A stretch of DNA of 64,000 nt from Phycisphaeraceae bacterium (GTDB lineage Bacteria; Planctomycetota; Phycisphaerae; Phycisphaerales; UBA1924): positions 1-64,000 of the forward strand of contig JAJTGZ010000010.1 of assembly GCA_021299385.1 (NCBI GenBank), given 5' to 3'. A program made the translations under genes and the position numbers. Shown here in pieces: positions 15,493 through 20,474 of this stretch. Positions within the stretch are counted from its first letter, which is position 1. The number at the start of each line of letters is the position of its first letter. Below the pieces are notes generated by a model that was not told the origin of the DNA, did no database searches, and saw only the letters and a program-made list of their open reading frames with translations.

Positions 15493-16239
15493 TTAGACAT
15501 CCCGATCTCCACCCGACCGGCACAGCCGCTCATACGCCGAACGAAGCGCTGAGCGTGCCCTAAAGAGTCGGCTCTTGACCGTCCCAACGGGCACGCCGAG
15601 CACCTCGGCGATCTGCCCATAATCCATGTCGCGCACATCACGCAGGATCAACAACGCACGCTGCTCACCATCCAACTCCGCCAGTGCCTGCCCCATCTTG
15701 CCTCGGGCCTCCTCACGTTGGACGCCCGACCCCTCCCCAGGTTCCCGGCTCTGAAGCAACTCCGCAAACGTCCCCCCACCCCCAGACCGATCAGAACCCA
15801 AACCGCCACCAATACCCCCGGCAGGAGTATCCAGCGAGGCATGCCGGCGGTGCTGCTGCCCACGCTGCCAACTCAAGCAGACGTTCATCGTTACCCGCAC
15901 CATCCACGTGCTGAGCTTCGCCTGCCCGTTGAAACTCCCAAGCCCCTGGATGATCTTGACCATCGCGTCCTGCGCCAAATCCCCGGCTATCTCCCGCGCC
16001 CTCGGTCCCGTGCCCACCATTCTATAACATACACCATACAAACGGTCTTGATGCCGGTTGAGCAGGCGTTGCCACGCCCCGGGCTGCCCGGCCCTGATCT
16101 CGGCGACGAGTTGCAGGTCGTGCGCGTCGGCCGAGGGAGCCTCCGTCGGGCTGGGCCCCTGGGCGTCATCGCTCAGGCGTGGACCATCCTCGGGTTTGGC
16201 AGGGGGGCTGACCATCGGCTGGCGCATCCTATCGACCAC
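15493..16239 (-). CDS. ECF RNA polymerase sigma factor (RpoE family)
   Basis: WQRLLNRHQDRLYGVCYRMVG; FNGQAKLSTWMVRVTMNVCLSWQR; DYGQIAEVLGVPVGTVKSRLFRARSALR. Confidence 0.93.
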   Translation of the reverse strand: MVDRMRQPMVSPPAKPEDGPRLSDDAQGPSPTEAPSADAHDLQLVAEIRAGQPGAWQRLLNRHQDRLYGVCYRMVGTGPRAREIAGDLAQDAMVKIIQGLGSFNGQAKLSTWMVRVTMNVCLSWQRGQQHRRHASLDTPAGGIGGGLGSDRSGGGGTFAELLQSREPGEGSGVQREEARGKMGQALAELDGEQRALLILRDVRDMDYGQIAEVLGVPVGTVKSRLFRARSALRSAYERLCRSGGDRDV

Positions 16240-16291: not shown

Positions 16292-16328
16292 TGTAGCCTG
16301 CGCTACATTGTTCGTAGCGCAGGCTACA
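16292..16328. promoter_or_regulatory. Nested palindromic operator candidate upstream of metal ABC importer
   Basis: TGTAGCctgcGCTACA (16292-16307) then GTAGCgcagGCTACA (16314-16328); the two halves also form a 15-bp inverted repeat; 22 nt before the ATG at 16351. Confidence 0.6.
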
Positions 16329-16350: not shown

Positions 16351-17385
16351 ATGCCCATGTACACACACACCCTCCGGCTCGTTCTCGCGATTGCTGTGAT
16401 GCTCCTGCTGGCGCTCGCCATGCCCGCCTGCGAAAGGCGTGCGCCCGCACCGGCGGTGCAGTCGCACGGGCCGCTGGTCGTCGTCGCGACCACGGCACAG
16501 ATCGCCGATCTCGCACGCGCCGCCGCGGGGCCTCAGCTTGGCAAGGCCCTGACCGTCGAGTCGATCATGGGCCAAGGGGTAGACCCGCACACCTACAAAC
16601 TCACACGCTCAGACGCGGCCAGGCTCGACGCCGCCGACGTTCTCCTGGCCAGCGGGCTGCACTTGGAGGGCAAACTCATCGACACGCTGACACAACTCAA
16701 GGCCTCGGGCAAGCGTGTGGTGCTGGTGGCCGACGAACTGCCAGAAAGTGAACTGATCGCCGCGGGCACCACCGGGCAGTCGGCCAAGGCGCACGACCCG
16801 CACTTCTGGATGGACACGCACCTGTTTGCCCTCGCCTCGGGCATCGTCGCCGAGACGCTTTCGCAGGCCCTGCCCGAGCACGCACAGACCTTTGCCGAGG
16901 GGTCGGCAGAGTACCGCAAGCAGCTGGCCAAGCTCGACGACTACGCCCGGCTGATCCTCTCGCAGGTGCCGCCGCAGCAGCGCATCTTGGTAACGAGCCA
17001 CGACGCCTTCGCCTACCTGGGCCGGCGATTCGGGCTGGAGGTGCACGCCATCCAGGGGATCAGCACCGAGAGCGAGGCGAGCGTGCGCGACATCGAAGCG
17101 CTCGCCAAACTCATCGCCGAGCGCAAGGTCAACGCCGTGTTTGTCGAGAGCAGCGTCCCGCGCCGGACGATCGATGCACTGATCGCCGCCACCGGCGCGA
17201 GCGGGCACACCGTGGGCACAGGCGGCGAACTGTTCAGCGACGCCATGGGCAGGCCGGGGACGTACGAGGGGACATACATCGGCATGCTCGACCACAACCT
17301 GACGACCATCGCCCGCGCGCTGGGCGCATCACCCCCCCCACCACCACGCGGCATGCAGGGCCTGCTCGCCGAGCCTGCAAAGTAA
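16351..17385 (+). CDS. Metal ABC transporter substrate-binding lipoprotein (TroA/ZnuA cluster A-I)
   Basis: LAMPACERR lipobox; GVDPHTYKLTRSD; HDPHFWMDTHL; VTSHDAFAYLGRRFGL; GTYEGTYIGMLDHNLTTIARAL; no long His-rich loop. Confidence 0.93.
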   Translation: MPMYTHTLRLVLAIAVMLLLALAMPACERRAPAPAVQSHGPLVVVATTAQIADLARAAAGPQLGKALTVESIMGQGVDPHTYKLTRSDAARLDAADVLLASGLHLEGKLIDTLTQLKASGKRVVLVADELPESELIAAGTTGQSAKAHDPHFWMDTHLFALASGIVAETLSQALPEHAQTFAEGSAEYRKQLAKLDDYARLILSQVPPQQRILVTSHDAFAYLGRRFGLEVHAIQGISTESEASVRDIEALAKLIAERKVNAVFVESSVPRRTIDALIAATGASGHTVGTGGELFSDAMGRPGTYEGTYIGMLDHNLTTIARALGASPPPPPRGMQGLLAEPAK

Positions 17386-17404
17386 ACCTTCCCCGCACGC
17401 ACCC

Positions 17405-18223
17405 ATGAACCAGCACAGCACCAACACCGACCCACCCCTGCTCGTGCGCGACATGACCGTCGCCTACGACAAGCGCCCGGTTCTCTGGGACATCGACTAC
17501 GCCTCGCCGCCGATCACGCGTGGGCACGGCTCGCTCACCGCCATCGTCGGCCCCAACGGCGCTGGCAAAAGCACGTTCATCAAGGCCTGCCTCGGCCTGT
17601 TGCCTGTGGCCACCGGCAACGTCCGCTTCTTCGGCCAGCCGCTGGCCAAGGCCCGCGCGCTCGTCGGCTACGTCCCCCAGCGAGAGAGTGTCGATTGGGA
17701 CTTCCCCGTCAGCGTGCTCGACGTTGTCGCCATGGGGCGCTACCGCACGCTCGGCTGGCTCAGCCCCGTTACCCGCGCCGCCAAGGCCCAGGCGCTCGAT
17801 GCGCTCGCACACGTCGGCATCGACAACCTCGCCCACCGCCAGATCGGCCAACTCTCCGGCGGGCAGCAGCAGCGCGTCTTCATCGCCCGCGCGCTCGCTC
17901 AGCAGGCACGCCTCTACTTCATGGACGAACCCTTCGCCGGCGTCGACGCCGCCACCGAGCAGGCGATCATCGCCGTGCTCCGCTCACTGCGCGATCAGGG
18001 CGTAACCGTCCTGGTCGTGCACCACGACCTGCAGACCGTGCCCACCTACTTCGACCACGCGCTCCTGCTCAACACCCGACTGATCGCCACGGGCACCATC
18101 GCAGACGCCTTCACCCCCACCAACCTCCAGCGGACCTACGGCGGTCGCCTGACGCTCCTCGAGCAAGCCTCCACCGCCCTCGCCCAAAACATCGGCCCGG
18201 CCGGCGTGCGAGGGCAAGCATGA
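17405..18223 (+). CDS. Metal ABC transporter ATP-binding protein
   Basis: VGPNGAGKST Walker A; QLSGGQQQRVFIARAL; LYFMDEPFAGVD. Confidence 0.96.
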   Translation: MNQHSTNTDPPLLVRDMTVAYDKRPVLWDIDYASPPITRGHGSLTAIVGPNGAGKSTFIKACLGLLPVATGNVRFFGQPLAKARALVGYVPQRESVDWDFPVSVLDVVAMGRYRTLGWLSPVTRAAKAQALDALAHVGIDNLAHRQIGQLSGGQQQRVFIARALAQQARLYFMDEPFAGVDAATEQAIIAVLRSLRDQGVTVLVVHHDLQTVPTYFDHALLLNTRLIATGTIADAFTPTNLQRTYGGRLTLLEQASTALAQNIGPAGVRGQA

Positions 18224-19521
18224 GCCAACTGACCGACATCCTGCTCCTGCGCGCAGGCTATGCCAGCACACTCGTGCTCGTGGGCAGCACGCTGCTGGGG
18301 ATCGCCGCGGGCGTCGTCGGCGTGCTGGCACTGCTGCGCCAACGCTCGCTGCTGGCCGACGCGCTGGCGCACGCGACGCTCCCCGGCCTGGCCGCCGCCT
18401 TCATCACCGCCGCGGCGCTCGGCATCGACGGGCACGCTTTGCCCGTCCTGCTCGGCGGCGCGACGCTCGCGGGGCTGTTGGCCCTCAGTGCCGTCAAACT
18501 CCTGCAGGCCTCCCCGCGCATCACGCCCGACGCCGCGCTTGCCAGCGTCCTGGCCAGTTTCTTCGGCGCTGGCGTTGTGCTCATGACGGTTGTCCAGAAC
18601 CTCGACACCGGCGGGCAGGCCGGCCTCGAACGCTTCATCTACGGCCAGGCCGCCGCGATGCAGTCGCACGACGTCTACATCGCCGCCCTCTGCTCGATCG
18701 TCGCCTGCGCGCTCTGCCTGCTGCTGCTCAAGGAACTCCGCTTGGTTACCTTCGACCCCTCCTTCGGCCGAGCGATCGGCAGGCCGATCAGCATGCTCGA
18801 TGCGCTCGTGCTGGTGCTGGTGCTGGCTGTTACCGTTGCTGGGCTGCAGATGGTCGGGCTGATCATGGTCGTCGCGCTGCAGATCGTCCCCGCAGCCGCC
18901 GCACGGTTCTGGACCAACCGCCTGGGCACCATGCTGGTCATCTCAGGCTCGATCGGTGGCCTGAGCTGCGCCGTCGGTGCGGCGATCTCTGCCAGCATCC
19001 CCAAAGCCCCCACCGGCGCGGTCATTGTCCTTGTCGCGGGCGTGGCCTTCACCATCAGCATGCTCGCCGCGCCCAGACGTGGCCTGCTGGCAACCGCCCT
19101 GCGCCGCGCGGGCGCATCGCTGCGCATCAGCCGAGCGCACGCCCTCCGATCGGCGCTCGAACGCAGCGAAGAAACCGGCACACCGCTGCACTCGCCTGAA
19201 CTGCTCGCATCCCCGCACACCGGCGGGCTACAACGATTCTCGCTGACCTGCGCCGGGCTGCTGCGCCGCGGGGCGCTGACAGATGCCGGCATCGCCCAAG
19301 CCCGTGCCGCCACGCGTGCGCACCGCCTGTGGGAGCAGTACCTCGTCGCCCGCGCGCTGCACGACCCGTCTCACGCCGACCTCATCGCCGACCTCGTCGA
19401 GCACGCCGCGACGGAGGCCGACGTGCAGGACCTCGAACGCGAGCTCGCCCTGCCGCACGCGGGCACGCTGCCGCAGAGCACCCACCCGCTGCACGCGCAG
19501 CAGACCGGGGGCAGCACATGA
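18220..19521 (+). CDS. Metal ABC transporter permease (ABC-3) fused to C-terminal DtxR/MntR-like domain
   Basis: ATG at 18220 overlaps previous stop; ABC-3 helices; C-terminal LTDAGIAQARAATRAHRLWEQYLVARALHDPSHADLIADLVEHAATEADVQDLERELALPHAGTLPQSTHPL resembles DtxR wHTH end plus metal-binding/dimerisation region. Confidence 0.85.
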   Translation: MSQLTDILLLRAGYASTLVLVGSTLLGIAAGVVGVLALLRQRSLLADALAHATLPGLAAAFITAAALGIDGHALPVLLGGATLAGLLALSAVKLLQASPRITPDAALASVLASFFGAGVVLMTVVQNLDTGGQAGLERFIYGQAAAMQSHDVYIAALCSIVACALCLLLLKELRLVTFDPSFGRAIGRPISMLDALVLVLVLAVTVAGLQMVGLIMVVALQIVPAAAARFWTNRLGTMLVISGSIGGLSCAVGAAISASIPKAPTGAVIVLVAGVAFTISMLAAPRRGLLATALRRAGASLRISRAHALRSALERSEETGTPLHSPELLASPHTGGLQRFSLTCAGLLRRGALTDAGIAQARAATRAHRLWEQYLVARALHDPSHADLIADLVEHAATEADVQDLERELALPHAGTLPQSTHPLHAQQTGGST

Positions 19522-20474
19522 CGTGCACACTCGCCGACGCCGTCGGCAGCATCTTCTGGCGCTTGGACTTCGCCCCCCTGCTTGCCGCGGTGCTCGCCGG
19601 TGCGCTCTGCGGGCTGCTCTCGGGCGTATTGGTGCTGCGTCGCTCGGCGATGCTCGGCGACGCGATCAGCCACGCCGTGCTGCCGGGGCTGGTCATCGCC
19701 TTCCTGCTCACGGGCACGCGGTCGGTGGGGCCGATGCTCATCGGCGCGGCGCTCGCGGGCGTGCTGGCCGTCGGGATGATCGAGGCCCTCCGCCGGCTCG
19801 CCCGCGTCGAGGCCGGCGCGGCGACAGGTGTCGTCTTCTCCGTCTTCTTCGCCCTCGGCGTCGTCCTCATCAACGCCTATGCCGACGCCATCGACCTCGA
19901 CCCCGGGTGCGTGCTTTACGGCTCGCTCGAAGGCCTGCGCTGGCCGGGGCTGAACAGCCCGAGCGACCTGCTGAACATCGAGACGCTCACAAACACACCA
20001 CGCCCCATCGCCACGCTCGCCGCGACGCTCGCCGTTACGCTCGTGCTCTTCGCCGGCGGGTTCAAACTCCTACGCCTGTGGTGCTTTGACGCAGGCCTTA
20101 TGGCCTCCCTCGGCCTTCGCCCGGGCCTCGTCGGGGGCGTCGTCATCGCCCTTGTCGCCGCCGCGACTGTGGCGAGTTTCGAGGCCGTCGGGTCGATCCT
20201 GGTCGTCGCGCTCCTGGCCTGCCCCGGTGCCGCGGCCCGGCACCTGACCGACCGCTTCGGCACGCACCTGCTGCTGAGCACACTGCTGGCCGTGCTCGCC
20301 GCGGTCGCGGGATACACGCTGGCCGTCTGGGGCCCTGGACTTTTCGGGCACCCGCACGCCGTCAGCGCACCGGGGATGATTGCCGTGTGCAGCGGGGTGA
20401 TCCTGCTTGTGTGCGTGCTGGGGCGGATGGTGAGGAAAAAACTACTCGCGCTGTCCCAGCGTCACTTTGCATAA
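19518..20474 (+). CDS. Metal ABC transporter permease (ABC-3), second subunit
   Basis: ATG at 19518 overlaps previous stop; LRRSAMLGDAISHAVLPGLVIAFLL. Confidence 0.93.
   Translation: MTCTLADAVGSIFWRLDFAPLLAAVLAGALCGLLSGVLVLRRSAMLGDAISHAVLPGLVIAFLLTGTRSVGPMLIGAALAGVLAVGMIEALRRLARVEAGAATGVVFSVFFALGVVLINAYADAIDLDPGCVLYGSLEGLRWPGLNSPSDLLNIETLTNTPRPIATLAATLAVTLVLFAGGFKLLRLWCFDAGLMASLGLRPGLVGGVVIALVAAATVASFEAVGSILVVALLACPGAAARHLTDRFGTHLLLSTLLAVLAAVAGYTLAVWGPGLFGHPHAVSAPGMIAVCSGVILLVCVLGRMVRKKLLALSQRHFA

Follow-up and report, generated by a model that had tools for sequence, protein, structure and literature searches.

A metal importer whose first permease ends in a DtxR-like domain raises the question of whether this tail controls genes or the transporter that carries it. 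The locus lies in the window, i.e. the whole 64,000-nucleotide stretch of Phycisphaeraceae DNA that was analysed, where four genes on the + strand form an operon (16351-20474), the last three joined by ATGA overlaps. Its features are the following:

16292-16307, unstranded: operator box 1, TGTAGCCTGCGCTACA (TGTAGC-N4-GCTACA), exact and conserved upstream of relatives' operons
16313-16328, unstranded: operator box 2, CGTAGCGCAGGCTACA, one mismatch, 21 bp from box 1
16351-17385, + strand: substrate-binding protein of the TroA/MntC type (among solved relatives, TroA scores best, with 228 bits)
17405-18223, + strand: ATPase subunit, nearest by family matches to Mn/Fe importer ATPases (MntA/SitB type)
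18220-19521, + strand: first permease, 433 aa, ATG start, with an ABC-3 domain (about 18274-19065) and a DtxR-like cytosolic tail (19069-19518)
19168-19281, + strand: winged-helix segment of the tail, degenerate and without a wing (AlphaFold); Pfam matches no HTH in it
19279-19455, + strand: PF02742 metal-binding/dimerisation domain of the tail (Pfam)
19518-20474, + strand: second permease, 318 aa, without a tail; most relatives have one at the same place

The importer and its genes

Judged from its sequence, the operon is of the Tro/Ytg type and encodes an ABC importer predicted to carry Mn, Fe or Zn. Regarding the permease, its place in the ABC-3 family follows from PF00950 and from an operon that also encodes an ATPase and a metal-binding protein; in NCBIfam, the proteins of the operon matched Mn and Zn systems, always below the curated cut-offs. 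The ATPase has 272 aa that are mostly covered by family matches, the putative regulatory domain being placed on the permease instead. As for the second permease, its truncation by a frameshift was ruled out: no tail remnant occurs in the 600 nt downstream, and a convergent dapA follows immediately. A search of the genome for an Nramp transporter (MntH) found none.

The tail of the first permease

In the 433-aa protein, Pfam assigns residues 19-282 to ABC-3 (165 bits) and residues 354-411 to Fe_dep_repr_C (PF02742), the latter with 29.1 bits, above the cut-off of 27 bits; the score is 31.8 bits when the tail is searched alone. No match to PF01325, the N-terminal winged HTH of DtxR, was found in this tail, and its AlphaFold model (pLDDT 79) has helices and no wing strands. 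Thus, both the fusion of an ABC-3 permease with a DtxR-type metal-binding/dimerisation domain and the degenerate winged-helix end, as read from the letters in an earlier note, were borne out, the former also by the conserved tail family described below.

In the structural comparison proposed in that note, 44 of the 45 top Foldseek hits of the window's tail were DtxR-family proteins, but the match was weak (best E = 0.14, probability 0.97) and the wing was absent. The D tail of a relative, i.e. that of the second permease, was instead modelled as a complete DtxR-like fold with a full winged helix (pLDDT 90) and was matched clearly (E 1e-5); the Foldseek matches of the tail models are DtxR, IdeR and SloR. 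Profiles of the tails, compared with the PDB, also matched DtxR-family chains (A2, 5.6e-27; A1, 1.2e-11). The window's tail is only 30-42% identical to those of its relatives.

Two halves with different fates

The tail family was aligned from 40 operons and comprised 76 sequences, 38 from C subunits (37 homologues and the window's) and 38 from D subunits; 24 free regulators, namely the genome's own and 23 from the operons of near relatives, served for comparison. PF02742 was matched by all 76 tails, including the 37 homologous C tails, and PF01325 by none of them at E <= 0.1, whereas the 24 free regulators all matched both domains. Pairwise identity over the HTH and wing was 0.18 in C tails and 0.16 in D tails, against 0.54 in free MntR, and the length of this segment ranged over 32-59 residues in C tails and 28-61 in D tails, against 43-45 in free MntR; in the metal domain, the corresponding identities were 0.61 and 0.58, against 0.56. 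On these comparisons, the DNA-binding half of the tail is eroded and the putative metal-sensing half is kept.

The net charge of the HTH segment was tried as an indicator of DNA binding and was uninformative: the median was +4 for the relatives' tails, with +2 for MntR and 0 for the window's tail. Since the relatives' HTH segments are mildly basic and the D tail of one relative is modelled with a full winged helix, the tails of relatives may contact DNA or lipid.

Regarding the metal site, the putative ligands in the window's tail are H368, E372, H385, D387, D391, E394 and H395, together with H307 in the preceding helix. Positions M10, H79, E83, H98, C102, E105 and H106 of DtxR, whose roles as ligands are known from DtxR structures, correspond to H307, H368, E372, D387, D391, E394 and H395, so that M10, H98 and C102 are replaced by His or Asp. 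The ligand columns are nearly invariant in both alignments of 38 tails, reading H/H/E/H/D/D/E/H in C tails and D/H/E/H/H/(mostly E)/E/H in D tails. Conservation of metal ligands was among the checks named in the earlier note, and all eight candidate positions are present in the window's tail.

Architecture and history of the fusion

The operon survey covered 101 operons, that of the window and 100 others of its order. In 70 of them, the two tandem permeases are both tailed; the tail is on C only in eight, the window's among them, and on D only in seven; 13 have a tailed C and no separate D gene that could be found, and three have no tail at all. The 13 operons with a C gene only include some at contig ends, some with a single permease and three single-chain forms. 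The latter (L143:5416-7977, L109:58-2634 and L137:6404-8812) are proteins of 802-858 aa with the order permease-tail-permease, in which one tail joins both permeases.

When tails and free regulators were placed in one tree, rooted at the midpoint, the fused tails formed one group (100/100), with those of single-permease operons basal within it; PF01325 is still weakly matched by some of these single-permease tails, in one case with 25.7 bits. With this rooting, the data fit a scenario in which a complete regulator was fused once, with duplication and a loss of DNA binding coming later.

Named relatives of the fusion include some from planctomycete and phycisphaeral genomes and from some Bacteroidota. 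Two further kinds of protein were observed: ABC-3 permeases whose tail is short, resembles a winged helix and lacks PF02742 (L013, L014, L016 and L018, mostly Bacteroidota), and proteins from Anaerolineales and Phycisphaerae (L025:4707-5750, L026:4755-5789 and L027:1568-2602), in which a short N-terminal, possibly membrane, segment precedes a DtxR metal domain and one or more FeoA domains, resembling a membrane-tethered DtxR-FeoA protein.

The operator and the free MntR

The earlier note had seen no free-standing DtxR or Fur gene, and this holds for the window but not for the genome, which has a Fur on contig C90 and a complete free-standing MntR on contig C58 (PF01325 27.1 bits, PF02742 44.7 bits); the latter reaches 145 bits with the model of E. 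coli-type MntR, just under the curated cut-off of 153.

As for the DNA upstream of the operon, box 1 is the sole exact match within the 2.63 Mb genome. The DNA upstream of E. coli mntH, read directly, contains AAACATAGCAAAGGCTATGTTT, the established MntR box of that gene, with the same core and spacing as TAGC-N4-GCTA. Among relatives, 36 of 97 upstream regions contain this motif, against 0.42 expected from shuffles and none in a control stretch. A free regulator lies inside the fetched region in 75 of the 101 operons. Where the linked regulator is a short MntR, the box is present in 26 of 43 operons; where it is long and of the DtxR type, in none of 32 (Fisher p = 8e-9, a value that is only indicative because related genomes are not independent). 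Nearly all the operons in this comparison carry tails, and yet the box tracks the short MntR as opposed to the long DtxR type; for this reason, the operator is assigned to the free regulator, and the sequence data fit MntR-type boxes that are presumably read by the free MntR and not by the tail. Consequently, the palindrome at 16292-16328, which the earlier note had suggested trying as a target of the isolated tail, is indeed a conserved operator, with the evidence assigning it to another protein.

A sigma-70 promoter scan around the operator found nothing. On the opposite strand, a gene judged sigma-factor-like from its sequence (15493-16239, -) starts about 50 bp from the boxes, and it might also be under MntR control. 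The 16-mer TTTACCCGTGGCTACA is repeated on contigs C9, C13, C26, C29, C42, C46, C78 and C93 of genome G000 and is possibly part of a repeated element.

Relation to known systems

The free E. coli-type MntR has its parallel here in the genome's own MntR and in the TAGC-N4-GCTA boxes; unlike the window's tail, it is a complete DNA-binding repressor, encoded on another contig and outside the permease. The Treponema troABCDR system shares a DtxR-family regulator, and its TroA is the solved protein closest to the window's binding protein. TroR, however, is a separate protein, and the Tro permeases are not known to carry a DtxR tail.

The closest parallel in architecture is YtgCR of Chlamydia trachomatis (ytgABCRD), with the same order of binding protein, ATPase, permease with a DtxR-like C-terminus and second permease; the A-B-C(R)-D arrangement is found here as well, and so is the metal domain of the DtxR type that ends the permease. 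The mechanism of the Chlamydia fusion has been described in detail: the regulator is cleaved off, binds DNA in an Fe-dependent way and represses its own operon (PMC5599777, PMC6504234, PMC7755916). Orthologous fusions have been reported from 11 phyla (PMC5599777), so that the earlier statement that no mechanistic description of ABC-3/DtxR fusions was known is out of date. The fusion type is already known, and what differs here is the tail: YtgR, according to its published description, has a DtxR-like HTH (PMC5599777), which is eroded in the present family; YtgR is cut off and represses DNA, whereas the window's genome has a free MntR; and most relatives of the window have both permeases fused. 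The open-access papers searched gave no account of operons with both permeases fused, nor of an HTH lost from such tails.

A precedent for trans-inhibition of ABC importers is offered by MetNI and ModBC, which have regulatory domains added to their ATPase subunit for this purpose (PMC10710835). The proposed logic is alike, with a dimerising cytosolic domain that binds the imported substrate and halts transport, but their folds are unrelated and sit on the ATPase, while here a DtxR fold is placed on the membrane subunit.

A probable sensor and brake on the importer

On balance, we find it somewhat more probable than otherwise that the DtxR-derived tail is a cytosolic Mn/Fe/Zn sensor that would slow its own importer, beside the control exerted by MntR, the allosteric step being inferred. 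Because the DNA-binding half is eroded and a separate, complete repressor is kept, the tail probably signals to the pump and not to genes. Imported metal would bind the tail on the cytosolic face, the tails would pair or dock on the ATPase or the permease, and at high cytosolic metal transport would be slowed, giving a fast trans-inhibition alongside the slower transcriptional control by the free MntR. Most relatives have tails on the two permeases alike, and a DtxR-like tail dimer could therefore form inside one transporter; the second permease of the window has no tail, which precludes such a dimer in this genome, where the lone tail would act by docking or between transporters. Several points speak against a brake: the regulatory domain of MetNI and ModBC is on the ATPase subunit and not on the permease, the second permease here is untailed, the fold match of the window's tail is weak (Foldseek E = 0.14), and among relatives one D tail is modelled with a full winged helix and the HTH segments are mildly basic.

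The gene order and the fusion shared with Chlamydia ytgABCRD, together with the palindromic operator upstream, would suit a tail that a protease releases and that then represses its own operon in a metal-dependent manner. We consider this improbable: an HTH match is missing in all 76 tails and the wing in that of the window, the operator follows the type of the free MntR/DtxR regulator and not the tail, and a complete MntR is present in the genome. On the same grounds of HTH loss, MntR and operator distribution, a tethered or cleaved repressor is disfavoured as the main function. Hence, of the two mechanisms left side by side in the earlier note, direct sensing with trans-inhibition is favoured, and the membrane-tethered regulator, with its wing lost and a MntR with matching operators in the same genome, is not; the tail is most likely, as far as its sequence tells, a trans-inhibition brake and not a repressor.

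It is unlikely, though deserving of some weight, that the tail serves structure or metal handling, by pairing the permeases, by docking on the ATPase, or by taking up and buffering the imported metal, with no feedback on the transport rate. Such a module would agree with the role of PF02742 in dimerisation and with its presence on both permeases, in single-permease operons and as the linker of the three permease-tail-permease chains, and also with the Bacteroidota relatives, whose winged-helix-like tail lacks it; the near-complete conservation of the DtxR ligand set, instead, exceeds the needs of a scaffold, and tails are not required for assembly, since three of the 101 operons have none and in 15 one of the permeases is without. 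Finally, the window's tail might be a vestige heading for loss in this genome, given that the second permease has already lost its own, that the wing is gone and that the PF02742 score (29 bits) is barely above the cut-off; all eight candidate ligand positions are nevertheless kept despite the low identity to relatives, and we regard this as very improbable.

In conclusion, the brake, if real, would add to the ABC importers a trans-inhibition architecture with the sensor on the permease, built from the metal domain of a repressor; it would also suggest that many permease-DtxR fusions which one would take for repressors of the YtgR kind may lack DNA binding. A broader proposal, which we hold tentatively and at slightly less than even confidence, is that a DNA-binding metalloregulator, once fused to a permease, had its HTH eroded and became a metal-sensing brake on the membrane subunits of an ABC importer, with the tandem permeases together supplying the sensor dimer in most of the order. 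One system would combine a transcriptional sensor, MntR, with a transporter-borne one, probably for the same metal.
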